Numbered from the stretch's first letter, positions 19,319 to 35,302 are shown. The stretch is DNA of 64,000 nt from Promethearchaeota archaeon Loki_b32 (GCA_005223125.1 NJBH01000012.1:1-64000), one strand, 5' to 3'. Program-made: numbers and translations. Notes: generated by a model not told the origin, from the sequence alone.

Positions 19319-22294
19319 TTAAAAAGTTTGCCGAAATATATCCATTATCGTTTTCTTATAAAAGAATTTTACCAAAATTATGTAGGTTCCAAGGAATGCA
19401 AAAGCAATTGATAAAATAAATACTCTCAATAATGTATCAATTGGTATAGTAAACACTACAGGCATTTCGGTCATTAGACTCATATTAGTTTCCATTAAAT
19501 ATGCTGTATATGTTCCAATTATCGTTCCCATAATACCTGCAGAAAGCAAAACTATCATACTTTCAACTAAAAACATATTCCTAACATTACGAGCTTTCAT
19601 ACCCATAGATCGAAGTATCCCTATCTCAAATTTTCTCTCCATAATAATTGCATACATACTACTAACTAAACCAAAAATGCTAATGATTATCGTGAACATT
19701 AAAATTAATTCCATTAAAAAAGCTTGTCTTTCGGTCATTGCCTCCATGAAATTTATTTTAGATATTGCATCATCGATGACAATATCTTTTTCTTGATACA
19801 TAGCTCGAATATCATCTTTTGTCTCTTTAATATTTTCTTCAGATTTTTCTATTAAATTTAAGAAAACTTTATCTACAATCATATTACTTTCTCCAGGGTT
19901 ATTAATTTTCATCAAACGCATATAATTCTCCAATGAAACCATTACTCCTCCTCCGGGTGCAGACATTTCATTAGTTCGGAAGTTGTAAAATCCTGGTATC
20001 CCTCCTGAAATTCCTACAACTCTAAATAAGGTAACATTGCCTGGATCACTTTCTACTAAGGGATCATAGAAAGTTATTCGTACATACTCCCCAACTTTAC
20101 TAATACCAAGTAGACTAGCGATTGATTTTGCTATAATACAAGTATTATTGTGAGTAAATAATTCATTAAAGGAATAATCAGTACTACTACCGTCACTCTT
20201 CCAGATTAATAAACCTTTATCAATTAAATCAACGAAATCCTCATTGATCCCTATAAATCCCGCATTAACGACATCAAAATCCATCATATCTCCTATTGTT
20301 GTTCTGAGTTTAGCTTCTTCTTGAGCTGAATAAAATTGAAATAAGTTCATCATCAATTCTTCTGTAGATTCACTCGAAAAACCTACTTGTCCCTCACTAA
20401 CCTCAAAAAGTGCTGCTAAAGTAGCAGTTAAATCGAAAGTATTATGAAGTGAAATAGCTAATTTATCAACACCAGCTAAAGTTTTCAATTCATCAACAAT
20501 TTCAAGAGTAAGTGCATCTTCAGGATTATATAAATCTTGGTTCATTAAGACTAAATCAGATCCATATTGAAATTTTAAATTTAAAGCTGTATTTTCTGAT
20601 TCCATTTCAGTTACGCTTGTTATGAAAAAAATAAATGAGAAACTAATGGCAAACATAACTACTGTACTGGTATTACGTCTTCTATACCGTTTTAACGAAA
20701 TACTAATTATGCTACTATATTTTCTTATACTTGGTGAAATTAATCCTAATAAGATTTTTTGAATTAATGGAATGACTCCCACTGATGCAAAAACCAAGCC
20801 AATTACAATTGCCGCAAGTAAACCAATAAATAATAATGAAGTTAACATGAAATCTCCAGTAACAAAAATATTTGGTAATAAGATAAAAACTATCATGCCA
20901 ATAACAGCAATCGAAATTCCAGTAAGAAAGCTTTTTACATTCATACTCCCTTCTTTTTTTACTTCCCATCCTTCTTCCTTAGTTTGAAATGGTGTAATTG
21001 ATTTTATGATATCAAGTTTGGCAGTTTTAAGAGCAGGTAATAAAGCTACTCCTAGAGATACCAAAGTTCCTATAGCAAATGACATTATTAGTGTATCGGG
21101 GTGAATAACCCATTCTACTTCCGAGAACTCAAATTGAAACCCATAGAGAGGGAATAAATTACTAGCAATTGGCCTTATTAAGGTAACACCCAATATCATT
21201 CCAATTATTGAGCCAAAAAGCCCTAACATTAAACCCTCAAAAAGAACCATTTTTACAGGATATATTTTTTTACCCCCCACTACTCTAACTATTCCGAATT
21301 CTCTCACTCTTTCCTCAACTGAAGTAGATAAGATACTATTTATTAGAATAGCAGTTATAAGCGTGGAAAGGATTGTAACAAACCAAAATATAATTGTTAC
21401 TGTCATTAATAAGAATTCACCACCTTCGAGTTCCTCTAATTTTGGGAGACTTACAGAAAATTCGTTAAGATCCAATCTTTCTTGTATTCTTGATCCGATC
21501 ACTCTAAGTCTCCGAGTTGTTTTTTCTAAATCACTAGCATCATATACAGATTTAGGATTAGTAATAGTTCCAAAAATAAAGTTTATTTGACCCTCTCTTT
21601 GCAGGAAAGTTTGGGCTTGCTGCAAATTAACAAGAATTAAGGAAGACTCAAATTGCATGAATCTAAGATCTTGAATACAGATTTCAACCACTGTTAAATT
21701 TAACTCATAAGTTTGATATTCAATATTAATCTTATCACCTTTACTAACATTAAGGATCTCTGCAACATTCCAAAGTATAACACATTCGCCATTATTTGGC
21801 TCTCTATCATAGATTTCATTCGTTTCTTCACCTTCATCATCCACAATGACTAAATCTCCCATATTTCCATTATTATCTTCTTTAATAAAATCAATTCCAT
21901 ATAATTGTAAAAAACCGCTTGTGTTTATTTTATCTGAAGTTGTTTTTACTAGCATTGAAATACGTGGAAATAATTCATCAATTCCATCAATATCCGTCAA
22001 TTCATTATTAATGATATCCTCATCATAGAATGGATTAAATGTTAAATCTGTTTGGAGGGATCGAGTTATCATTATATCACTCTTACCCGTAATCGAGGTA
22101 ACATACAATAAGTAGTTATAGTTTACCGTATCATTTAACATTCCAATTGTTGTTAATAGGAATAATGAAATTGCGATACCAGATATCCCAAAAATAGCTT
22201 TCGCTTTATCACGTTTAAGGTCAAGCCAAGAGTGCTTAAAAAATTGCAGGTCTATTCTTTTTTTTAATTTATATATAAATCCTCTCAATTCCAT
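19319..22294 (-). CDS. FtsX/MacB-type ABC transporter permease, large (second of the cluster)
   Basis: A 991-residue permease, twice the length of a single FtsX/LolC unit. One N-terminal helix (about 31-50) is followed by a 240-residue extracellular domain and three helices (about 290-420). Then come three helices near 455-560 and a second extracellular domain of about 300 residues. The protein ends with three helices from about 865 onward. The conserved FtsX cytoplasmic motif SSVEERVREFGIVRVVG and, at the end, MERKFEIGILRSMGMKARN mark both halves. It is the last gene of a five-gene minus-strand operon (gaps 9 to 30 bases) with a LolD-like ATPase, another such permease, a surface protein and a subtilase. 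It likely forms a heterodimer with the 1004-residue permease; substrate not known. Confidence 0.88.
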   Translation of the reverse strand: MELRGFIYKLKKRIDLQFFKHSWLDLKRDKAKAIFGISGIAISLFLLTTIGMLNDTVNYNYLLYVTSITGKSDIMITRSLQTDLTFNPFYDEDIINNELTDIDGIDELFPRISMLVKTTSDKINTSGFLQLYGIDFIKEDNNGNMGDLVIVDDEGEETNEIYDREPNNGECVILWNVAEILNVSKGDKINIEYQTYELNLTVVEICIQDLRFMQFESSLILVNLQQAQTFLQREGQINFIFGTITNPKSVYDASDLEKTTRRLRVIGSRIQERLDLNEFSVSLPKLEELEGGEFLLMTVTIIFWFVTILSTLITAILINSILSTSVEERVREFGIVRVVGGKKIYPVKMVLFEGLMLGLFGSIIGMILGVTLIRPIASNLFPLYGFQFEFSEVEWVIHPDTLIMSFAIGTLVSLGVALLPALKTAKLDIIKSITPFQTKEEGWEVKKEGSMNVKSFLTGISIAVIGMIVFILLPNIFVTGDFMLTSLLFIGLLAAIVIGLVFASVGVIPLIQKILLGLISPSIRKYSSIISISLKRYRRRNTSTVVMFAISFSFIFFITSVTEMESENTALNLKFQYGSDLVLMNQDLYNPEDALTLEIVDELKTLAGVDKLAISLHNTFDLTATLAALFEVSEGQVGFSSESTEELMMNLFQFYSAQEEAKLRTTIGDMMDFDVVNAGFIGINEDFVDLIDKGLLIWKSDGSSTDYSFNELFTHNNTCIIAKSIASLLGISKVGEYVRITFYDPLVESDPGNVTLFRVVGISGGIPGFYNFRTNEMSAPGGGVMVSLENYMRLMKINNPGESNMIVDKVFLNLIEKSEENIKETKDDIRAMYQEKDIVIDDAISKINFMEAMTERQAFLMELILMFTIIISIFGLVSSMYAIIMERKFEIGILRSMGMKARNVRNMFLVESMIVLLSAGIMGTIIGTYTAYLMETNMSLMTEMPVVFTIPIDTLLRVFILSIAFAFLGTYIILVKFFYKKTIMDIFRQTF

Positions 22295-22324
22295 ATTCTT
22301 TATTCTTCAATTTTTTATTTTTCT

Positions 22325-25300
22325 TTATAGATCTAAAATACTAAATTTTTCTTTCCGTCTTTTAAATTTTCTCAGAATTTTTCCTTCTTTAGCTAAAATT
22401 TCTTGAATATCTTCTTTTTCACGTCTAATTAACCTCACTCCTTCACAATTTTTGTTTTTACAATGATAATTTTCTCCTGGTTCATCGAAATATTGAAATT
22501 TTCCACAGTTTGTACAGTTATATGCAGCATAAATTTGATCATGCTCACATTCAGGACAAATAATATTAAATTTCGTAGATACAAACCAGGATCTGCATGA
22601 TTTGCAATATAGAGTTAAAGGTCTATTTAATTCTTCTTCATGTTCAATTAATTCTATCCTTTTAATTACTTGATCTTTATCAATATCTTTAAGTCGTACT
22701 TTTTCAGCACGAGTGTCTTTTAAATTCTCAACCCATCCTTTTCCCTTTTTTTCAGCTATAATGTATAATATCACCCCTAAGGCAACTGCTATAAAAATTA
22801 TCGTGATATATGGACCCCATGTACGCCACCATCTCATATTATCGACCTTTAATACAATAAACACTTCTGCTTTATTTCCTTCTTTATCATAAGCTACTAC
22901 TCTTACTTCATATATACCATCGCTATATTGAACAGTATCCCAATTAAATTCTAGAATACTAGTATTACTATTGAAAATGAGTTCATTTCTATCAACACTC
23001 TTATTATTAAGAAGAATGTATATTCTAGACTCATCTAATTCGACATTATCAAATATATGCGCTTTAATCTTAATCAATGATTTAGCAATTATATCTGGTT
23101 CAGGTGCGATAATCTCTATTTCGGGAGCTACAAAATCCGTTGATTTATCATATCCTATATAAATATTAGATAAAAGCCAACCATATCCTAATCCAATTAC
23201 ATTATTATTTGAATGTAGTGTGAACATTATCATTATATCTTCATTTGAATATTGTGTAATATCAAATCGTTTACTTCCAGAAAGATCTTCATCGTCATAT
23301 GCAAATTCCCGAAGAATTGTCCAAGTTTCTCCAAAATCTTTTGAAACTGATATAATACATTTATCTACTTGATCCTCAGGTACAAAGAATTCATTCTGTA
23401 AAGAAATATCATAATCAAATTCAAGATAAATACTATATTCACCCCCCAAATGTAAAGGGCGAGTTATTAATTTTGAGTCCCAATTTGGATCATATCCTTG
23501 TTCTAGACTTCCATAACTTTGTCCTATCCCTCCATATAGAAGAGAATTTCCAAGTCGGATTATTGGATGCCAGGTATTATCTCCCCCAAACCATGCTGTC
23601 ATTTCTTTTGGTGTTGGTGTTCCTGTAATATAATAATCTGATAAACTTGAATTTGAAAAATTATATCCAATATATTTGTTATCCTTATAAACATTAAATT
23701 GCAAAGGACTTGGATTTATAAATTTAAATAAGGAATTATTTTTATTATATAATCGGGTTGTAATCATATATTTCCCATCTGAAACGTGAAACCTAAATGA
23801 TTGATTAGAAATTTCTTCTAAAACGAGAGATTTAACAAAATGAATCCCATTATCTCCAAACATATTCGAGTTAGAATCCCAATCTCCATAGAGATTACAC
23901 ATTGTAAAATTCGTATCATCCATTTCTAAATATATAAATTCAGGATAATTATTATCAATATCAAAGATCTCACATGAAAATGTAAATTTCTGATATTTTG
24001 AGCCTTGAGTTGAGGAGATATCATTATTTAAATCAAATATAATTGAGGGGAGATTTATATTCGTATAATTCTCAATAGCAAAATAATCCAAAATAAATCC
24101 TTTATAATTTACGGTATCAAAAGTATCATCTAGAGATGTTTCGAATCTAAATTGGATAAAGTTTCCAATATAATGAGTTAAATTAATCTCTTGCATAAAC
24201 CATTCTTGCTCTATATTAGTATAGGTTCGTAAAGTTATCCATCCGGTCCAATTTAGATTAATTTGAAAATATAGGAAATCTCCAGCATTGAAGCTAATTC
24301 GAAAACCGAATTTTACAAATGGTTGTGTAGTTTTTTCATTAAGGTTTGTTAAATTAAATAATGGACTGTATAAAGTTCCATTTGGATATGGATCTTCAGT
24401 TATTCTAATAGGTTGATATGTATAATTTTGTGGATAATCATGATAGGTACCAAAATATAAAGAATTCCATGAATTCTGATAGATTCTTGATCTATTATCA
24501 TTTATATTCGTTTGCTGTAACACATTCCACCCTGTCCCTGAAGATGTCCAATTTCCAAATCCATTATCAAAATCTTGATGATTTGGGAATTGTATACTAT
24601 CCGTTGGAAATTCAATTGTGATATTAAGTTGTTTAGTATCAGGATATCTTGTTGTAAACGTACCATCACTGGCAATAAAAAAGTAGTGATATATACCTGG
24701 TCTTGGAAATTGAATGTAATCACTCATGAATAATGCCCCATCTGTATAATTATTATCTATTGGATTGAATTGAGTTAAAGTAAAGTTTTCCATTGTTTCT
24801 ACTATAGAAACATATACTTCTTGGGGTGGTACATTTGAAGTATCATTATCAAAATACTCAATATAAAATCTATAACTATCAATACTATAATTTTTCTTAG
24901 GCTTATAACCCATAAATTCTTGGAAACTCATGATTGTTGTATTTTTAGAACCACCTAAATAAAGAATTTCAGGAATTTTTAATTCTGGCTTAAAACTATT
25001 CTTAATGGTTGAAATATTCAAAGTAAAATCACTATTCCCATCGATTGCTTTTACGATAATAACACAATTGGTTTGGTTTTTTTTAGGAGTAAAATAAAAA
25101 TAATCAAAATCACCATACCATTTTCTAGAAGATTCTAAAAGGATTGGTTCACCATATTGATTTGATTCATTAGAAAAAAGATACATGTCAAAATTAGTAT
25201 TTATATCAGCTATTGATAAATTAAATGAATACTGTATGTCTTCTTCAAGTGTGATTTGTCGAGCAAACACGTGTGTTCCAAGAGGATTTTCTTGAGAACT

Positions 25301-27100
25301 TATTAAATTTCCAATAATAGAACTATTGACATCCATAAATTTGGTTAAAGCATCAATTGCAGCCTCAATGTTTAATCTTCCATATCCTTCATGAATGTCC
25401 TTTAAGCCACTTGTCATTGGAGCTACTGATAAAGAAGGTGAATGTTCACTCTCATCACTACTAGTAGATGGATCATCTTCTCTTTCCAGATTCGTTTCTG
25501 AAGCAGTCATCAATAAATAAGCCTTAATATACTTTACCCATTTTGTTAAATTTAAATTGCTCCATTGATTCCAATTATTCCATTTTGCTTCTATTAATAT
25601 ATTTAAAGCAGCTGAGACTATAGCTGTAGCAATTGATGTACCATAAGCCGCTGTAACTTTGTCGAATTCTTCATTAGCACCTATAACTGAACGATGACCT
25701 GGTAGTTTGCTCCCTCCAGGCGCAACGATGTCTGGTTTGGTAATATTATCGATTTCTTTACCCATACTGCTATAAGAGGTAACTTGATCCTTATCATTTA
25801 TTGCACCGACAATAATTGCATTTTTATTTTGAGCTAATCTATTTAATGAATCTGAAACTTCTACACCTTTATTTCCGGCAGTAATTACTACTAATGTACC
25901 ATTTTCTATTACCTCATCTATTGCAGCATTCACAGCTACTACATCTTCTCCGAATGTACCAACACTTAAACAAACACTAACAATATGATGCTTACTTTTA
26001 TTTTGTATTACACTTGCTAATGCTGATATCAAATTTGAGGAAAATCCTATTCCAGAATGATTTAAAATCTTATATGATACGATTTTTGTAGCATTTGCAA
26101 TTCCAGTAAAATGATTTCTATCACTAGTAAACACTTCGGGAAAATAAGATACTGTAGTATTAAATGAAAAAATTGGATTAGTTTGGAAATCTCTCTTATA
26201 TTTTAGATATAAATCATAAATTCCTAATTTGTCTTGGGTAATCGTTTGATCTATCATGTAATAATCATTAGGGTTTTCGTTATATGAATAATTCACTAAA
26301 GTATTATTATAATGTAATTCAAACCAAAAATTTAGTATTCCATCAGCTTTTCGAGTCCATGAAGAATTAATTAGTATACTTGAATCCACTTTAGACGCAT
26401 TAAAAGAAAATAATTTTAGAGTGAAATTTTGTAAAGCAGAACCTCCCCCAAATAACTCTCTATGTGAATAATTTCCATGGATCTTAACAATTGAGGGAGT
26501 ATTTGAGTCATATGGATCGATACCTGTTCCTGAAATAATAGAAGTAATTAAGGTTCCATGTCCATTATCATCAGATATAGGTTGCATATCTACAAAATTT
26601 TCCCAACCGATTATATCTCCAATCAAAAAATCGTGGTTTGGATTAACTCCAGTATCCAATACAGCTATGGAAGAATTCGTATCCCCTTTTAACCCGTTTA
26701 AATACCACGTAGAATTTATAGCTCCAGATTGAATAGAAGCATAATTCATTTGAGCTTCTAGTACCTCATTATTTTCAATTATAGCATCCGGAAAATCATT
26801 TTGAAATGCTGTTTTATTCGTTTCAAGAGGCATAATACCAGCAAATCCAGAAAATGAACTAAATTGATTATTCCATTCTCTTTCAATAGTTCCACTATAG
26901 AATTCAAACCGTGATGTAACGGAGCTATTATAAGAGGGTTTTCTAAAAAAGACAATAATATTTTTATAATAATTACTTGAGATTTCGGGATCTGTTTCAT
27001 TTTGATTTTCTATTTCATTAAAATCTAGGATAATCAAATTATCAAGAAAAAAGCTTACAAATGAAAAAGTCAGAAACAAAATAATAAGACCAGAATACAT
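22325..27100 (-). CDS. Membrane-anchored subtilisin-like serine protease with cytosolic zinc ribbons
   Basis: A 1591-residue protein. Residues 3-26 form an N-terminal signal/anchor; 47-120 resemble an I9-type propeptide. The S8 catalytic domain has Asp149 (IAVLDTGVNPNHDF), His181 (DDNGHGTLITSIISG), oxyanion Asn410 (VITAGNKG) and Ser489 (AAYGTSIATAIV), so the triad is intact. An insertion of about 150 residues sits between the His and Asn blocks. The 900-residue extracellular stalk is Asn-rich with many N-glycosylation sequons and beta-sandwich-like repeats. A single membrane helix lies at about 1431-1449. The cytosolic 140 residues hold eight cysteines in four pairs (1499/1502, 1515/1518, 1529/1532, 1547/1552), a double zinc ribbon. 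Fourth gene of the ABC operon. Subtilases with cytosolic zinc ribbons are, as far as I know, unusual. Confidence 0.9.
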   Translation of the reverse strand: MYSGLIILFLTFSFVSFFLDNLIILDFNEIENQNETDPEISSNYYKNIIVFFRKPSYNSSVTSRFEFYSGTIEREWNNQFSSFSGFAGIMPLETNKTAFQNDFPDAIIENNEVLEAQMNYASIQSGAINSTWYLNGLKGDTNSSIAVLDTGVNPNHDFLIGDIIGWENFVDMQPISDDNGHGTLITSIISGTGIDPYDSNTPSIVKIHGNYSHRELFGGGSALQNFTLKLFSFNASKVDSSILINSSWTRKADGILNFWFELHYNNTLVNYSYNENPNDYYMIDQTITQDKLGIYDLYLKYKRDFQTNPIFSFNTTVSYFPEVFTSDRNHFTGIANATKIVSYKILNHSGIGFSSNLISALASVIQNKSKHHIVSVCLSVGTFGEDVVAVNAAIDEVIENGTLVVITAGNKGVEVSDSLNRLAQNKNAIIVGAINDKDQVTSYSSMGKEIDNITKPDIVAPGGSKLPGHRSVIGANEEFDKVTAAYGTSIATAIVSAALNILIEAKWNNWNQWSNLNLTKWVKYIKAYLLMTASETNLEREDDPSTSSDESEHSPSLSVAPMTSGLKDIHEGYGRLNIEAAIDALTKFMDVNSSIIGNLISSQENPLGTHVFARQITLEEDIQYSFNLSIADINTNFDMYLFSNESNQYGEPILLESSRKWYGDFDYFYFTPKKNQTNCVIIVKAIDGNSDFTLNISTIKNSFKPELKIPEILYLGGSKNTTIMSFQEFMGYKPKKNYSIDSYRFYIEYFDNDTSNVPPQEVYVSIVETMENFTLTQFNPIDNNYTDGALFMSDYIQFPRPGIYHYFFIASDGTFTTRYPDTKQLNITIEFPTDSIQFPNHQDFDNGFGNWTSSGTGWNVLQQTNINDNRSRIYQNSWNSLYFGTYHDYPQNYTYQPIRITEDPYPNGTLYSPLFNLTNLNEKTTQPFVKFGFRISFNAGDFLYFQINLNWTGWITLRTYTNIEQEWFMQEINLTHYIGNFIQFRFETSLDDTFDTVNYKGFILDYFAIENYTNINLPSIIFDLNNDISSTQGSKYQKFTFSCEIFDIDNNYPEFIYLEMDDTNFTMCNLYGDWDSNSNMFGDNGIHFVKSLVLEEISNQSFRFHVSDGKYMITTRLYNKNNSLFKFINPSPLQFNVYKDNKYIGYNFSNSSLSDYYITGTPTPKEMTAWFGGDNTWHPIIRLGNSLLYGGIGQSYGSLEQGYDPNWDSKLITRPLHLGGEYSIYLEFDYDISLQNEFFVPEDQVDKCIISVSKDFGETWTILREFAYDDEDLSGSKRFDITQYSNEDIMIMFTLHSNNNVIGLGYGWLLSNIYIGYDKSTDFVAPEIEIIAPEPDIIAKSLIKIKAHIFDNVELDESRIYILLNNKSVDRNELIFNSNTSILEFNWDTVQYSDGIYEVRVVAYDKEGNKAEVFIVLKVDNMRWWRTWGPYITIIFIAVALGVILYIIAEKKGKGWVENLKDTRAEKVRLKDIDKDQVIKRIELIEHEEELNRPLTLYCKSCRSWFVSTKFNIICPECEHDQIYAAYNCTNCGKFQYFDEPGENYHCKNKNCEGVRLIRREKEDIQEILAKEGKILRKFKRRKEKFSILDL

Positions 27101-27127
27101 TTTTTTTTTTTTTATTTCAGATCCCCT

Positions 27128-30100
27128 CTATTCTGTAGTATTTTCAAATTTAATTGTTGATTTATCTTTATTAATATCAAAATTGTGTTCAATATCTTTC
27201 CTCGATATTATACTTAATCTCTCTCTTAAAGTATGATCGATTTTGAAAATTGTTTCTCTTGAGCTAAGATGGAAAATTTCCGTTTCAGATCTTTCAAATT
27301 CACTTTTTTTCTTTTTATATTTTTTAGTTTGCCAAATATATACAGTCGAAATTACAAACACAATTAAAATTGGCAAACATATATAATATAATTGCCTGGT
27401 TTTCGGTGTAATTACTTTAATGGAAACAATATTTGATGATTCTTTATTTTCTAGCAAATAATAAAATTTTATACTAGCAGGCTTTAAACTTACAAGAGCT
27501 TGCCTTTTCGATTTAAGTGTGTAATTAATAGAAATTTTTTCATTAGGTTCTAATGAAATAATTAAATTAACTAGCTTACCTGTTAATAAGGAAAAATCTG
27601 ATTGAGAATAACTTATCATGTCATTTACTCTAAAATTATTAATAGCTATTGTTCCTGTATTTTCTACCTCAATGTTTACAATTACTACATCTCCAATTTC
27701 AATTTGATCCTTATTCACGGATTTCACTATTGAAAAGTTTATTTCCCCTAATATTTTAAATGAAGAATCAGAGATTTGGATTGTTCTGCTTTCTGAACTT
27801 TTAATAAAATTTATTGAGGGATAAAAATATCCTTTCCATCCAATCTTTTGTAGAGTTATATTAAAAGCAATTCTTTCATTATAGGTTATATTTTCAAAAT
27901 AAAGTAGCTCATCATCAAATCTCCTTAAATCACCAAACTGATCATTCATTATTACACTAATATCAGGTATTTGAAACCCTATAGGCCCAATATTTTTGAG
28001 ATTTACTGTTAGATTAAAAATGTCACCTATACCAGGTGCTTCATTAATAGGGTTTGAATTACTATTGTTATAATAAATTTCAATGGTTCTTGTAAATGGG
28101 GAACGATCCTCATAGTCAACAGGTGCAGAAACATAAACCTCATTAGTAAAACTAACTATTTTAGAAGAATTTCCTCCTTGGATCTTTTCTGGATTATAAT
28201 AAACTATTGAGGTTTTACTAATTGAAATTGAATTAGGTACATAGAAGGTAAAATTTAATGTTTTTTCTTCAAAAGGAACTAGTTTTTCTATATAATAGGA
28301 TAAATTGCTATTTTGAAGAGTGAAATTTCTAAATTTATCCATGATACCTGGTATTAACAATGAAATACTTAGGTTTTCAGCAATATTAGAACCAATGTTC
28401 TTAAAATTAATAGTGTATGTATTTAATTCTCCAGGATTAGAATAATTCTTTGCGAGGTATGAATAAGCTACTATTGAAGCTGCATTAAAAGTGCTTAATG
28501 GAATAGAATTAGATCGCTTTTCAAATTGAACGTAACTAGTCGAGGAGGCATATAAAACTCTAGAACCAGAATCATCATTAAAATTAATATCTCTAGTGGA
28601 AAATTCGATATCTAAATCATTGATTGAAATATTAAACTGTTCAGAATCGATACATATGATTTTGAATAGAACCGTATAGTTATTATTATCGAGGGGATAA
28701 AAAAGCCAGTTTAAACTCTCATTATTATTAACAAATGAAAATGTCCAAGTATTGTTTATAATGGAATCTAAATACGGACTCATATCTCTAAATTCTTCAG
28801 CATCAAAATCAAAAATTTCAAAATCTAAAGAGTCTAAGTTATCCGGTGAGGTTATATTAATAATAATAGAGGCTCTTTCTAATGTGTTATTAGTAAAATC
28901 GATATTAGTATTATTCTTAAAAATAAACTCAAGTTCAATTCTCTGTTCCAAAAATTGTTCAATTGATCCAATTATCCAACTCTCATTATCGGTTGACAAT
29001 GCCATTTCTGGTGAAGTTCCGACTAATTGTGTCCCATATATAATTTCTGGTGTTTTAGGTGCGGATTCAATAGTGAAATTATTCAAATAGAAAGGAGAAA
29101 ATGAATCTAAATTAGCAATCGAATAGTTATTAATTTGATAAGATAACATTTCTCCAGGTTCCAATTTCCAATTATCGTCATTATAAATACTGTATTTATT
29201 TGAAAAAATGTCCGTAAGTTCTCCTGGTGTAAGACCTAAAATTGCTAATGCTGAAATTAATTGAGGATATCCTGTGACCATTTTATCAATTACATTATCA
29301 ATATCTTCATTATATGGTGATAGATTCGTCAAATTGAGTATATTTGGGAAAAAAGTATCATAAATTCCTGTACCAAATGAATCAAAATAAAAAATACGAG
29401 GATCCTCATCAAAATTGAAAAAATCTTCTAATGATTCATATTGATTTGGATATTCAATACGCACTACTTCCCATAAGGTATTTTGAAACTCATCTGCTAT
29501 ATCTTGATTTCCTAATGTAAGAAGGAGAAAATAATCATTAAGTTCAATCGGAATGGGGGTAGGTATGCCCCATGCGGTGATCTCCCCCACATTTTCTGCT
29601 GATATATAATATGAAAAGTCTCTAAATGCCCCATAGGATGCATTTCCTTCAATTAACTCCTTTTTAATGTAAAGATTAGGTTCGGTATCAGAAACATTAT
29701 AAGTAACAGATAGTTCATTGAACGGATTTACAATACCTGTGGGAATAGAAGAAAAACCTTGAAATCCTAAATATTGCAGCATATTTACAATATCTGATGG
29801 GTTATTTAAATTAACTGGTTTAACATAAGAATGCTTAATGCCCCCATCATTTACCCAAAATAATTCAAATGAGTAATCTTCAAGTTCTTGAACATCAAAT
29901 TCTGTGCCTGCAAGATAAAATATTAGAGCTATTTGCTCTAAAAGGTAATCATAAAACTCAAAATTTATTGGAATTGCATCAATGATATCAGTACATAAAA
30001 TATTTATTTCAATTTCACTCATAAAAGCACCAACTAATGCAATATATATTTTCTCACTTGGTGCTAAAGGTTCTCCTTCATAGCCTAATGCTTTCCACAA

Positions 30101-31084
30101 ATTAAATTTGTATTGGTTGGTTCCAACTTCTTGTATTCCTTCATCTAGGCCTTCATATTGAATAGATATACTAGTATAATGCGTGTCATTTTTAAGTGTG
30201 AATGAGCCAAAAATATCAGTAAATTGTTCAAATTCATCTTCTGAAATCGTAACGTTGATCAAGTCACCATAGTTTTCAGTTAGAGCATCGAATTGATCAA
30301 TAATGTTTTCCATTTCTAAATTTTCAATAAAAGATAAATCAATAGAATCTATATTAAAATTTACCTGATCCATAGATAAATCATAATCTCCCTCAAAAAA
30401 GTCTAAAGAATTTAGAAGCATAAAAGTAGAAGAAATATGATAATCCTCCAAATACATTTGGCTTGTTAAACGATTTAGGTCCATTGCCTTCCAATATCCG
30501 TCCATAGGAAAGTTGGTTGTAAGCTCTTGAAAAAAGCAATCCCAATTTGGGGGATGGCCAACAAAGGGGAAAAGATTTGGTTCTGATACATTTACCATTA
30601 TAAGGTCAATCGAAAATTTTTGTCTGATTATCTCCAGTGCTCTTTCAGCTCTCGATTTAGCATCTTCTGTATCTAAATCCTTATCATAATAAAGAAATCC
30701 CACAAAATTATTAAATCCCATTATATATTGAGATGGGATCTCACTTTCAGTCAATATTGTTGGAAAAATTTCTGGATTGACTCCATTTGAAGCACTTATA
30801 ATTATATTACATTTAGAAAAAGCTGGATCATTTGAGTCAAATTGGGACAGAATATTAGTATCATTTGTAAAAAGCGATTGTTTTATTATGGATTTATTTC
30901 CTACTACAAAAGCCTTAATACTTTCGGCATATAGATCTGATCCAGCAATATCTGAAGATTTCAAATCTTTTTTTTCTGTTTCTATTAAATTATCTTCTTT
31001 ATTTTGAAATAAAACATGATCTAAGGGAAGTAGAAAAATCATTGAGAAAAGTATGAATATAATAATTAGTTTGTTTTTCTTCAA
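27128..31084 (-). CDS. Very large secreted, membrane-anchored surface protein
   Basis: A 1318-residue protein of unknown function. Residues 5-22 are a signal-anchor (LIIIFILFSMIFLLPLDHVL) and a single helix near the C-terminus (YYICLPILIVFVISTVYIW) is followed by a 70-residue basic tail, so both ends reach the membrane and the middle faces outward. The extracellular part is rich in Asn, Ser and Thr with many sequons and contains, toward the end, tandem beta-sandwich repeats with the signature of conserved DUF11/CARDB-like modules (LNTYTINFKNIGSNIAENLS, IFNLTVNLKNIGPIGFQIP, VVIVNIEVENTGTIAINNFR). It sits between one ABC permease and the subtilase, gaps of 15 and 27 bases, and is a candidate substrate or partner of either. 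Confidence 0.75.
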   Translation of the reverse strand: MKKNKLIIIFILFSMIFLLPLDHVLFQNKEDNLIETEKKDLKSSDIAGSDLYAESIKAFVVGNKSIIKQSLFTNDTNILSQFDSNDPAFSKCNIIISASNGVNPEIFPTILTESEIPSQYIMGFNNFVGFLYYDKDLDTEDAKSRAERALEIIRQKFSIDLIMVNVSEPNLFPFVGHPPNWDCFFQELTTNFPMDGYWKAMDLNRLTSQMYLEDYHISSTFMLLNSLDFFEGDYDLSMDQVNFNIDSIDLSFIENLEMENIIDQFDALTENYGDLINVTISEDEFEQFTDIFGSFTLKNDTHYTSISIQYEGLDEGIQEVGTNQYKFNLWKALGYEGEPLAPSEKIYIALVGAFMSEIEINILCTDIIDAIPINFEFYDYLLEQIALIFYLAGTEFDVQELEDYSFELFWVNDGGIKHSYVKPVNLNNPSDIVNMLQYLGFQGFSSIPTGIVNPFNELSVTYNVSDTEPNLYIKKELIEGNASYGAFRDFSYYISAENVGEITAWGIPTPIPIELNDYFLLLTLGNQDIADEFQNTLWEVVRIEYPNQYESLEDFFNFDEDPRIFYFDSFGTGIYDTFFPNILNLTNLSPYNEDIDNVIDKMVTGYPQLISALAILGLTPGELTDIFSNKYSIYNDDNWKLEPGEMLSYQINNYSIANLDSFSPFYLNNFTIESAPKTPEIIYGTQLVGTSPEMALSTDNESWIIGSIEQFLEQRIELEFIFKNNTNIDFTNNTLERASIIINITSPDNLDSLDFEIFDFDAEEFRDMSPYLDSIINNTWTFSFVNNNESLNWLFYPLDNNNYTVLFKIICIDSEQFNISINDLDIEFSTRDINFNDDSGSRVLYASSTSYVQFEKRSNSIPLSTFNAASIVAYSYLAKNYSNPGELNTYTINFKNIGSNIAENLSISLLIPGIMDKFRNFTLQNSNLSYYIEKLVPFEEKTLNFTFYVPNSISISKTSIVYYNPEKIQGGNSSKIVSFTNEVYVSAPVDYEDRSPFTRTIEIYYNNSNSNPINEAPGIGDIFNLTVNLKNIGPIGFQIPDISVIMNDQFGDLRRFDDELLYFENITYNERIAFNITLQKIGWKGYFYPSINFIKSSESRTIQISDSSFKILGEINFSIVKSVNKDQIEIGDVVIVNIEVENTGTIAINNFRVNDMISYSQSDFSLLTGKLVNLIISLEPNEKISINYTLKSKRQALVSLKPASIKFYYLLENKESSNIVSIKVITPKTRQLYYICLPILIVFVISTVYIWQTKKYKKKKSEFERSETEIFHLSSRETIFKIDHTLRERLSIISRKDIEHNFDINKDKSTIKFENTTE

Positions 31085-31099
31085 GGTTTTTTGATCCTC

Positions 31100-34000
31100 C
31101 TAAAATGTTTCCCTATAAATTTCAACAATTTTCTTTTTTCTGGCTTTTCGTAACAGCAGCTTCATTCCAAGATATATCATGGTTATGGAGAGGAAATAAA
31201 TTAATCCAATATTAAACCATGGTACATATAGTATCTCAACTGAGCCTGATAATACACTTAAATTTGAGGTTACCAACCATGCTGTAAACCAACCTACAAG
31301 AATCCCTATAGTTCCACTACTAATCATTATGATTAAGGATTCAATTATAAATAAACGATTTATATCTTTACCTTTTAATCCTAATGTTCTAACTATTCCA
31401 ATCTCTTTCTTTCTTTCGATAATAGTTGAATAAGATGATGAAAGTAAGCCAAAAATACATATAAATACTGTTGTTAGAGAAATAAGTGTAAATAGAGTAT
31501 CTAATACAAAAAATGCAGACTCTTGCTGTGCAACCATCCGTGCTAAATTAAATATATCATAATTATAATCCGATTGATATAAATCATCAATCATTTCCTC
31601 AATATAATAAGCTTCTGATAATTTATCTTCTCGAAGTTTAATAAAAACTCTGTCTAAATAAGCGACTGGAGGAATATCCATAATTTCAATATATGTCTCT
31701 TGGGAGATTAAAACTCCACCTCTTTGTGCACTCATTGGTGATGATCCAAACTCCATTGAGAATCCAGGCATGCTTTTAGCGGTTCCAACAATTTTAAAAG
31801 GATATACTTCCAACTCATCTCCTCGGTGAATAACGATCCTAACATTATCACCAACCAGTAAGGACATTGCTATTGAAATCGCTTCAGAGATAATGCATGT
31901 ATACAATAGATTATCATAGAATAGACTATTAAAGGCATTATTTATATTACCAGAAGTCATTTCTATAAATTCATTTCTCACGGTAAAAGTATATTCTTCA
32001 TCAATTCCAATTAGGGTTATTTCTTGTGTGGTTAAACCAGCATAATCACCAATTTCAGCAATAAATTCCTTATTTTCTTCCGCATAGATTTGAGTTAATT
32101 GGTAAGGCTGTGCCAATACAGATGATACTTTCTCAACGCCATCAATTGCTAATAATTCTACTTCAAATTCAGTAGTCAAGATTCTATTGGGATTTATAGA
32201 ACTATCTAAGGTTTTTAAGGTCTGTAATTCTAAAAGTTCATTGGCAGAAATCCCATCACTGGCCATCAAACCAATTCCCCCTCCCCCTCCAAATCCTCCT
32301 TGGAAAATGTCCTCTTGTTCTTCCCAACCAGTAGTCTTTATAACTAGATCTGATCCAAAGCTTAATTGTGTCATAGCAGTTTCTTGTGCTGATAAAGTGT
32401 TAATAAGAGTAGAAGTAAAAATAACAAATGAAAAAGATAATGCAAAAATCATGACTGTACTCGAATTCCTTCTTTGGTATCGAAATATAAAAATTTTGAT
32501 AACATTGTGGAGACGTCTAGTTATTGGGCGAAATAAATGAATTACTAACCTCAAAACTACGGGAACTAATCCTAGTCCCGCAAGAGTTAATCCAATATTA
32601 AATATTAGTAAAATCGCTATCAATACTCCTGCGAATAAACTCATGTCACTTGAAACCATAATTCTTGGAATAACATAAAATACAAATCCTCCATTAAATG
32701 CCAGAATTACACCTACTAAAATTAATTTATAATTAACTGAAGCTTTCTTTTGTAAGCGATATAATGTATCTTCGTGGCGATATGGATGAATAGATTCGAT
32801 TAATTGAAGTTTCATGACTTTCAAAGCAGGAGCGATACTAACTATCATTCCTACACTAAGTCCCATAACATATGATATTATAATAGACCACCAAGTAAAG
32901 GAGAAAGGTATTTGACTAAATCCTAACGCACTCTGGGAAACTACGGTATTAGCAAAAGGTATTATAACAAATCGAGAAAGAATAAATGCTGTTATAATTC
33001 CTGAAATGGCACCAAAATTACACAATAAAAAACCTTGCATCAAGACTATTGATAAACTATATTTTTTATTTGCCCCTAAAGTTCTAAATATCCCAAATTC
33101 TCTGATTCTTTCCTCTATAGAAGTTTTTAAAATACCATTAATTAGAACCCCCGAAATGAGCATTGCTACAATCGAAACGAAAACAAAAATAATTACTATA
33201 AATACGCTTAAAAGCTCGGACCATCCTAAAATTCTTAATTTGGGTAAATCAATATTATATTCATTTATACCTATCGCTATTTGAATATCTGTTACTAGGT
33301 TCTTCACAAGGGTTTTAGAACCTTCAAGATCTCTAATATCATATAAACTATTACTTTGTTTGAAAGTAAGTATTAAATCACTGCATTTCCCGTTAAATTC
33401 ACTAAAACCAAAATATTGATAAAGCGTGTTAATATCCACTATAATTAAATTATCATTACGGTACTCTACTGGCCATTTTAAATTGTAATCAAAAATTTTA
33501 TCAATTGTTAAATTTACGGTACGAGAGAGGTTTATATTTCCATGAGTTAATTGCATGTTTATTTCAATTATATCATTTTCAGAATATTTAATAATATCAT
33601 TAAATCCATGATATATTGCACAGTGATTTAAAGGTAATTCATTTAGATCAAGTAAGTCATTATACACTGGATCAATAAAGCGCCCAAAATTAATACTATT
33701 TTCCAAAGAAAAATTAATTGCTGAGATCTTGCACCAAATCTTTTCATTTGTTAGATCAGTAGTATGAAAACCTTCAGAAATATTCACATCTCCATAAATC
33801 TCCATTCTTGGTATATAATGTTCAATTGCATTAGTTGTTTCTTGTATTGTTTGAATAACTGGATCATAATTGAAATATGAGGATCTATTATCAGGTTCTC
33901 CATTATAATGTCTTATTGAGATAACAGCGTCTTGATTTCCTGAATCTATAGATAAATAATTAATGTAACCTACAGATATAGAATCTGATAATAATAATAC

Positions 34001-34114
34001 AACTGTAAGAAGGCCTATAGAAATAAGCATTCCAATTATAGCTAATAATGTCCGTATTTTTTGCTTTTTTAAGTCTAAAAAAGCATATTTGAAAATAAGT
34101 TTAAGATTAGTCAT
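31100..34114 (-). CDS. FtsX/MacB-type ABC transporter permease, large (first of the cluster)
   Basis: A 1004-residue paralogue of the permease at 19319, with the same layout: one N-terminal helix (about 22-45), a 230-residue extracellular domain, three helices including the FtsX motif KTSIEERIREFGIFRTLGAN, a second set of helices, a second large extracellular domain with a Gly-rich stretch (FQGGFGGGGGIGLM), and three C-terminal helices with ERKKEIGIVRTLGLKGKD. The gene begins 9 bases after the ATPase stop, typical of an operon. The two large permeases would pair with a dimer of the LolD-like ATPase to build a mechanotransmission-type ABC complex. Sequence gives no substrate. Confidence 0.88.
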   Translation of the reverse strand: MTNLKLIFKYAFLDLKKQKIRTLLAIIGMLISIGLLTVVLLLSDSISVGYINYLSIDSGNQDAVISIRHYNGEPDNRSSYFNYDPVIQTIQETTNAIEHYIPRMEIYGDVNISEGFHTTDLTNEKIWCKISAINFSLENSINFGRFIDPVYNDLLDLNELPLNHCAIYHGFNDIIKYSENDIIEINMQLTHGNINLSRTVNLTIDKIFDYNLKWPVEYRNDNLIIVDINTLYQYFGFSEFNGKCSDLILTFKQSNSLYDIRDLEGSKTLVKNLVTDIQIAIGINEYNIDLPKLRILGWSELLSVFIVIIFVFVSIVAMLISGVLINGILKTSIEERIREFGIFRTLGANKKYSLSIVLMQGFLLCNFGAISGIITAFILSRFVIIPFANTVVSQSALGFSQIPFSFTWWSIIISYVMGLSVGMIVSIAPALKVMKLQLIESIHPYRHEDTLYRLQKKASVNYKLILVGVILAFNGGFVFYVIPRIMVSSDMSLFAGVLIAILLIFNIGLTLAGLGLVPVVLRLVIHLFRPITRRLHNVIKIFIFRYQRRNSSTVMIFALSFSFVIFTSTLINTLSAQETAMTQLSFGSDLVIKTTGWEEQEDIFQGGFGGGGGIGLMASDGISANELLELQTLKTLDSSINPNRILTTEFEVELLAIDGVEKVSSVLAQPYQLTQIYAEENKEFIAEIGDYAGLTTQEITLIGIDEEYTFTVRNEFIEMTSGNINNAFNSLFYDNLLYTCIISEAISIAMSLLVGDNVRIVIHRGDELEVYPFKIVGTAKSMPGFSMEFGSSPMSAQRGGVLISQETYIEIMDIPPVAYLDRVFIKLREDKLSEAYYIEEMIDDLYQSDYNYDIFNLARMVAQQESAFFVLDTLFTLISLTTVFICIFGLLSSSYSTIIERKKEIGIVRTLGLKGKDINRLFIIESLIIMISSGTIGILVGWFTAWLVTSNLSVLSGSVEILYVPWFNIGLIYFLSITMIYLGMKLLLRKARKKKIVEIYRETF

Positions 34115-34123
34115 ATGGCTAAA

Positions 34124-35302
34124 TTAGTTTAAAATTAATATTTCTCCTTCAATCCTCCCAAAAAAATTGTTTTCTTCAATTAACTCCTGCAATATATCAT
34201 TAAAATGTTCTGGTAAATTCATAACAATAGAATTTGGAATACTATTTTTAATTTCACTTACCGGAATTTCTACTCTCCCTTGATTTGCAAATAAATATTG
34301 AAAAATTTTACACTTACATTTCTCTTTATTTATTTCAGTTTCTTGTCTTCTTTTCAGTTGCATTATTTCAGTTTCCTTTAAACCTCCAATTTTACCTTCA
34401 TGAGTTAGTTTTCCGTCTCTCATATGAAAAACCCTAGTAGCAAATTCTGATACAGCAGCATCGTGGCTTACCGCAATGAATGTTGCTCCTCTTTTATTTA
34501 AATCTCTGAGAAGGTTTAAAACCATAACTCCTGTTTTTGAATCTAAATCACCCGTAGGTTCATCTAATACACAAATCGCAGGATCATTTGCAAAAGCTCT
34601 GGCTATAGCAACTCTTTGCTGTTCACCTCCACTCAATTCTGAAGGTGTATGATGGGCTCTTTCATCTAGTCCTACTAATCTTAGAAGGTCCAGCGCTTTT
34701 TTTCTTTTACCCCGACGACTTAACTTCCCTGAAAAGTGTAAAGGGACCATTACATTTTCCATGGCTGTCATTTGAGGGAGTAAATTATAAAATTGAAACA
34801 CAAATCCTATTCTTTCTCTCCTAATCTCAGCTAAGGAATTATCGGATAACATACTAATATTTCTGCCTTCCAGAAATATTTTTCCCCTTGTAGGCGCGTC
34901 AAGTCCTCCAATTAAATTGAGGAGAGTAGTTTTTCCCGAACCTGAAGGACCCATTATATCGATGAAATCTCCCGTATCTATGGTTAAATCAACACCACGT
35001 AGCGCTGCCACAGCTGTGGTTCCTAATAAATAAGTCTTATGCAGATTTTCAACAACTATTAAATGATCATAGTCTTTATCAGCAACTTTATCTTCCCTAA
35101 TTTCTCTTTTCATCTTTTTCTTTTCAATCTTCGACTGAGTAAGCAATTCTACTTTTTGTTGCTTTATATCTTCTTGTTTTTTCTTTTTTTTCCATTTTTT
35201 AAAGTTCTTTGAAACTTCGCCTTTCCAAATTGCTAAATTACCCGTTTCTTGTTCATATTGCTCCATAAGAGGAGTCTTTTTAATTAGTGTTGATTTGGGC
35301 AT
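34124..35302 (-). CDS. LolD/MacB-type ABC ATPase with N- and C-terminal extensions
   Basis: A 392-residue ATPase, about 165 longer than a plain LolD. An N-terminal Lys-rich helix (KNFKKWKKKKKQEDIKQQ) of about 75 residues precedes the nucleotide-binding domain. That domain has Walker A GPSGSGKTTLLNLIGG, Q-loop FVFQFYNLLPQMTAMEN, signature SGGEQQRVAIARAFAND, Walker B ICVLDEPTGDLDSKTG and the switch His in ISVSHD-like AVSHDAAV. The last 65 residues (CKCKIFQYLFANQGRVEIPV to GEILILN) look like a winged-helix or PCI-like module, and start with a Cys-x-Cys. First gene of the five-gene operon and starts with ATG at 35302. It would energise the two large FtsX-type permeases. Confidence 0.92.
   Translation of the reverse strand: MPKSTLIKKTPLMEQYEQETGNLAIWKGEVSKNFKKWKKKKKQEDIKQQKVELLTQSKIEKKKMKREIREDKVADKDYDHLIVVENLHKTYLLGTTAVAALRGVDLTIDTGDFIDIMGPSGSGKTTLLNLIGGLDAPTRGKIFLEGRNISMLSDNSLAEIRRERIGFVFQFYNLLPQMTAMENVMVPLHFSGKLSRRGKRKKALDLLRLVGLDERAHHTPSELSGGEQQRVAIARAFANDPAICVLDEPTGDLDSKTGVMVLNLLRDLNKRGATFIAVSHDAAVSEFATRVFHMRDGKLTHEGKIGGLKETEIMQLKRRQETEINKEKCKCKIFQYLFANQGRVEIPVSEIKNSIPNSIVMNLPEHFNDILQELIEENNFFGRIEGEILILN

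Follow-up and report, generated by a model that had tools for sequence, protein, structure and literature searches.

The locus described here raises the question of why an ABC-type ATPase, two large permeases, a surface protein, and a subtilase should be encoded side by side in Promethearchaeota archaeon Loki_b32, and on what such a machine would act. All five genes lie on the minus strand of the window, the 64,000-nt stretch of DNA analyzed in full (GCA_005223125.1 NJBH01000012.1:1-64000). They read, in order, as an ATPase of 392 aa (34124-35302) resembling LolD and MJ0796, with an N-terminal extension and a C-terminal domain; permease A (PermA, 1004 aa, 31100-34114); the surface protein Surf (1318 aa, 27128-31084); a membrane-anchored subtilase (1591 aa, 22325-27100); and permease B (PermB, 991 aa, 19319-22294). 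The successive intergenic gaps are 9, 15, 27, and 30 bp, confirming the five minus-strand open reading frames, their 9- to 30-bp spacing, and their order as given in a preliminary description of the locus.

A co-inherited five-gene unit

We compared the five window proteins by tblastn with loci taken from relatives. Because the order ATPase-PermA-Surf-subtilase-PermB is identical in 24 further Lokiarchaeal loci across three families (f1, f2, and f3), and is retained down to 25 to 40% identity, with Surf as low as 25 to 32%, the arrangement is far beyond chance. The remaining loci are truncated by contig ends and none contradicts the order; the exceptions are loci that have no subtilase and one split locus. 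The preliminary description had suggested a search of Asgard genomes for the same order and had named non-adjacent homologs as the finding that would speak against its reading; the order proved conserved in the relatives' loci, non-adjacency was not what they showed, and the operon deserves a name as a unit. In the split locus (G004; L206 and L136 on one contig), the operon halves are 1.5 Mb apart. One break falls at about residue 929 of Surf and the other at about residue 919 of the subtilase, with some 4 kb absent, a pattern that reflects either rearrangement or misassembly.

In most f1 genomes the operon is flanked by S15, S3Ae, Ham1, and RNase III, none of which was found in the f2 or f3 loci. 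Four f1 genomes (G014, G017, G021, and G029) have Ham1 adjoining RNase III with no operon gene between them, at a spacing of about 37 bp (L208), 122 bp (L209), or 390 bp (L210 and L211). Because these operon-free genomes keep Ham1 beside RNase III, the five genes are gained or lost together, as one co-inherited unit, apparently inherited vertically and repeatedly lost. Across the phylum, both Surf and the PermA-PermB pair are confined to families f1 to f4 in a survey of 228 genomes, many of them metagenome-assembled, for which absence is weak where the assembly is fragmented; the clean Ham1-RNase III sites are independent of fragmentation. Families f18, f20, and f27 have a two-gene pair in which a single 10-TM permease stands beside a LolD-like ATPase. 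Both genes are homologous to those of the operon, from which the pairs differ in having one permease and, within the stretches read, no Surf-like or operon-type subtilase gene.

A type VII ABC core with two permeases

The permeases are subunits of the type VII (MacB/LolCDE/FtsX) ABC class. Pfam places FtsX (PF02687) twice in each (E = 6e-31 for PermA and 3.5e-29 for PermB) and MacB_PCD also in PermA, which matches PDB profiles of MacB (4.6e-13) as well as YtrF, LolF, and LolC. By hydropathy, both have 10 TM helices, with ectodomains of about 250 to 300 residues at TM1-2 and TM7-8; in PermA these helices map to residues 23-41 (TM1), 302-320 (TM2), 553-571 (TM7), and 873-891 (TM8), and an extra hydrophobic stretch (736-754) lies inside the second ectodomain. 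PermA and PermB are paralogs, 33% identical across their full length, and in a joint tree each forms its own clade. Because each clade holds f1, f2, and f4, their duplication predates the divergence of the families. The ATPase (Pfam ABC_tran, 6e-37) has MJ0796 as its top Foldseek match (46 to 48% identity), and Walker A, the signature LSGGEQQR, Walker B, and the H-loop are all conserved among its orthologs. Both marks of the type VII superfamily are thus present, FtsX-fold permease domains and a LolD/FtsE-class ATPase with complete motifs, in support of the earlier view that this is an FtsX/MacB-type system rather than a classical transporter. The same genome encodes a second type VII ABC system (C63, L219:7652-13435), in which a 10-TM permease of the FtsX type (1387 aa) precedes two LolD-like ATPases that differ from each other.

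Comparison with named systems places the operon within a known arrangement, the type VII ABC pair with an extracytoplasmic partner, of which it is a novel form. The closest layout is that of YbbP from Escherichia coli, which has 10 TM helices with ectodomains between TM1-2 and TM7-8 and pairs as one chain with two ATPases (PMC12646458). The operon shares with YbbAP-TesA this single-chain permease architecture, a LolD-like ATPase, and an extracytoplasmic hydrolase partner. It differs in having two permease genes per ATPase, giant single-pass surface proteins as partners, an unrelated and dispensable subtilase as the hydrolase, and extra N- and C-terminal domains on the ATPase. Because the YbbP model lies far below its cutoff (NF041854; 16.8 bits for PermB against 999, PermA not being listed) and the five-gene unit has no TesA-like gene, the subtilase standing in that place, we use YbbAP-TesA as an analogy only and claim no family membership. 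Likeness to LolCDE, MacB, and BceAB extends to the FtsX fold, a MacB-like core domain, and an ATPase most similar to LolD. In contrast to those systems, we saw neither a lipoprotein chaperone nor an outer membrane or MacA partner, and the permeases score well short of the equivalog cutoffs for LolCE, MacB, and FtsX (66 of 362 bits for LolC/E); the ATPase, nearest to LolD, reaches 235.5 of the 307.75 bits of TIGR02211. A survey of Asgard transporters reported the Macrolide Exporter (MacB-type) family, TC 3.A.1.122, in every Asgard proteome but those of Loki (PMC7997004). Assignment to defense systems (PADLOC) or phage families was rejected, only generic subtilase and ABC matches being found. 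The operon does not resemble the IetAS anti-phage system either (IteS 28.6 bits against 900), its ATPase being of the ABC rather than the AAA type. We found no description of the operon in the open-access papers searched, for which the label "undescribed" holds.

That LolD, LolCE, and MacB are the closest named families invites a reading as an export or extraction transporter (LolCDE-, MacB-, or lantibiotic-like), in which the permeases would pull out a lipoprotein or peptide for maturation by the subtilase. We consider this quite improbable, as the 9- to 30-bp gaps are too short to hold a small precursor gene among the five, two large anchored proteins accompany the core instead, and some lineages have an inactive protease or none.

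The "extra domains" attributed to the ATPase in the preliminary description prove to be an N-terminal helix and motif and a C-terminal domain modeled as a winged helix. The latter (~80 residues, 312-392; 34127-34369, minus strand) is probably a winged helix, being confident in an AF2 model (pLDDT about 80 to 90, with the ABC core of the same model poor) and running helix-strand-helix-helix-hairpin. It aligns across f1 to f3; f4 orthologs give weak PCI/WH Pfam matches under the gathering score, and the ATPases of f27 and most of those of f18 and f20 are, by length, too short to include it. The N-terminal extension (35090-35302, minus strand) contains the motif YEQETGNLAIWKGEVSKNFKKW, shared with HisKA-receiver proteins and present in most f1 genomes. 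It was missing in g7 ATPases and from the matches of f2 and f3 ATPases. Within the same genome, the pattern YExETGxxAIWxGxxTxxFxKW (window 35168-35275, ATPase residues 10-45) also stands at the N-termini of three HisKA-response regulator proteins (L217:725-1618, L218:588-1460, and L218:1764-2735; E = 1.8e-10 to 3.9e-8).

Surf and a dispensable subtilase

Surf matches Pfam only at its C-terminal end, as Ig-like DUF11/TRAP_beta. An AF2 model of only fair quality (pLDDT 65), Foldseek matches to multi-Ig proteins and TRAP-beta, and hydropathy together suggest a signal peptide, an alpha/beta N-terminal module, a chain of Ig-like domains, one TM helix (residues 1232-1250; 27335-27391, minus strand), and a 68-aa cytosolic tail. 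Foldseek gave no fold match for the N-terminal module, and its other matches, mostly to Ig chains and with query TM-scores no higher than about 0.1, were not taken as homology. The membrane-proximal Ig domain (window 27449-27694) scores above the Pfam cutoff for TRAP_beta (translocon-associated protein beta) in three divergent orthologs, including L187 and L145, a match that we read as Ig-fold likeness only. The Surf ectodomain carries 31 N-glycosylation sequons and that of the subtilase 44, against 17.7 and 21.1, respectively, expected from composition for the whole proteins. This richness supports an outside position for both ectodomains, and Surf is probably glycosylated.

The subtilase was identified by Pfam (Peptidase_S8, 1.4e-31), by its best PDB profile match (3afg, "subtilisin-like serine protease," 3e-47), and by its catalytic residues. 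The intact triad reported earlier is borne out in the window, where Asp149 (26654-26656), His181 (26558-26560), and Ser489 (25634-25636, all minus strand) are accompanied by the oxyanion residue Asn410. A C-terminal TM helix follows by hydropathy (residues 1431-1449; 22754-22810, minus strand), and beyond it a predicted cytosolic double zinc ribbon with eight cysteines (residues 1499-1552; 22445-22606, minus strand), of which no second copy was found in the same genome at E ≤ 1. The triad is intact in 24 of 27 orthologs. In the other three (L139, L142, and L144, from the f2 genomes G048, G040, and G044), position 149 is Gly, 181 is Gln or Leu, and 410 is Asp, with Ser489 retained; the open reading frames are full, the rest of the operon is intact, and the genomes group as a single clade among the PermA as well as the PermB sequences of the tree. 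L142 and L144 also miss the propeptide region. Because these two subtilases keep 66% amino acid identity against saturated synonymous sites (pN 0.21, pS 0.76), theirs is not a decaying gene. Sequencing error or pseudogene formation is an unlikely source of the dead subtilases: the Asp-to-Gly and Asn-to-Asp changes are common to three genomes of two genera, and the intact frames and high amino acid conservation argue against it as well. As judged from its catalytic residues, the subtilase of one f2 clade has become a pseudoprotease.

Elsewhere the gene is missing altogether. The f4 loci (L187 and L188; genomes G039 and G043, with fragments in G041 and G045) read ATPase-PermA-Surf-PermB, and in one f1 genome (G023, L203) PermB abuts Surf, Ham1 and S15 keep their flanking place, and the contig stops inside PermA. 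When whole genomes were searched, G023 and most f4 genomes yielded no subtilase of the operon type, the only match in G039 being an unlinked one to the N-terminal half; the f4 absence may be an ancestral state instead of a loss. In other Asgard subtilases (L146-L155), the resemblance is limited to the catalytic half and ends at about residue 700 to 850. No gene of the operon's remaining four was found next to them, and they are a possible source of the operon subtilase. The constant core is the ATPase, PermA, PermB, and Surf, and the subtilase is a lineage-variable accessory. Because it is absent in f4 and G023, dead in one f2 clade, and invariant in its tail cysteines, its catalysis is not always needed and its tail is kept.

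These losses bear on what the ABC pair acts upon. The earlier suggestion that it mainly regulates or presents the protease is not supported, given the missing and inactivated subtilases. The idea of one permease per secreted protein is weakened, and rejected as a rule, in that PermA and PermB both persist where the subtilase is gone and only Surf remains. Mirror-tree and distance-matrix residuals resolved no pairing of either permease with Surf or the subtilase. In a YbbAP-TesA-like version of the earlier suggestion, the protease would be the effector, the ABC module extracting membrane or surface substrates or presenting them to the subtilase, with Surf as scaffold or substrate. The hydrolase that E. 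coli YbbAP has on its 10-TM type VII permease (PMC12646458) and the triad intact in most orthologs are consistent with such a scheme, which we nevertheless think unlikely, as G023 and the f4 loci look like working systems without a subtilase and three f2 enzymes are inactivated.

All eight zinc-ribbon cysteines are kept in 27 of 27 subtilase orthologs, the dead ones included. That the ribbons are more constant than the catalytic residues would suit a sensor or signaling relay (BceAB- or germinant receptor-like), in which Surf and the subtilase domain would bind an external ligand and the permeases, with the winged helix and zinc ribbons, would relay its binding inward. The motif that the ATPase shares with HisKA-receiver proteins points the same way, and subtilase pseudoproteases can be sensors, as is CspC of Clostridioides difficile (PMC6636752), which resembles the dead subtilases in retaining the fold and a role without catalysis; the operon subtilase differs from it in being membrane anchored, in having cytosolic zinc ribbons, and in lying inside an ABC operon. 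The patchy occurrence of the motif (missing in g7, f2, and f3) and the lack of any kinase or regulator gene traveling with the operon in the loci compared speak against a relay, to which we assign a rather low probability.

A candidate machine for the Lokiarchaeal surface

We tentatively favor, at slightly under an even chance, an ABC machine of type VII that works by mechanotransmission at the Lokiarchaeal cell surface and acts on Surf and its subtilase partner, its function being neither transport nor primarily protease control. Like YbbP, each permease would be a pseudo-dimer made of one chain and would bind an ATPase dimer, such that one ATPase drives both PermA and PermB. ATP binding and hydrolysis would close and open the four ectodomains outside the membrane, and these may grip and move Surf for its assembly, presentation, or remodeling on a surface without an ordered S-layer; Loki cells have complex surface proteins and no such layer (PMC9834061). 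The subtilase would be anchored next to Surf; if active it would trim Surf or Surf-bound material, and if dead it could act as a binding or structural subunit. The zinc ribbons, the Surf tail, and the ATPase winged helix are likely cytosolic contacts that would couple the state of the surface to the ATPase. We see a smaller chance, low overall, that the complex is a signaling or force-transmitting one of new architecture, in which one winged-helix-tailed ATPase and two single-chain type VII permeases would act on the Ig-rich Surf, the subtilase being mainly a ligand-binding (pseudo)protease and the zinc ribbon the conserved output. Other roles, such as envelope stress sensing, would fit the co-occurrence equally well.

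If this mechanism is true, mechanotransmission by type VII ABC systems would also have a part in the biology of the Asgard cell surface. Next to nothing has been learned about the machinery that assembles Lokiarchaeal surface proteins or moves them, and the operon is a defined ATP-driven candidate for that machinery, in which natural "mutants" (no operon, no subtilase, or a dead subtilase) already separate core from accessory.
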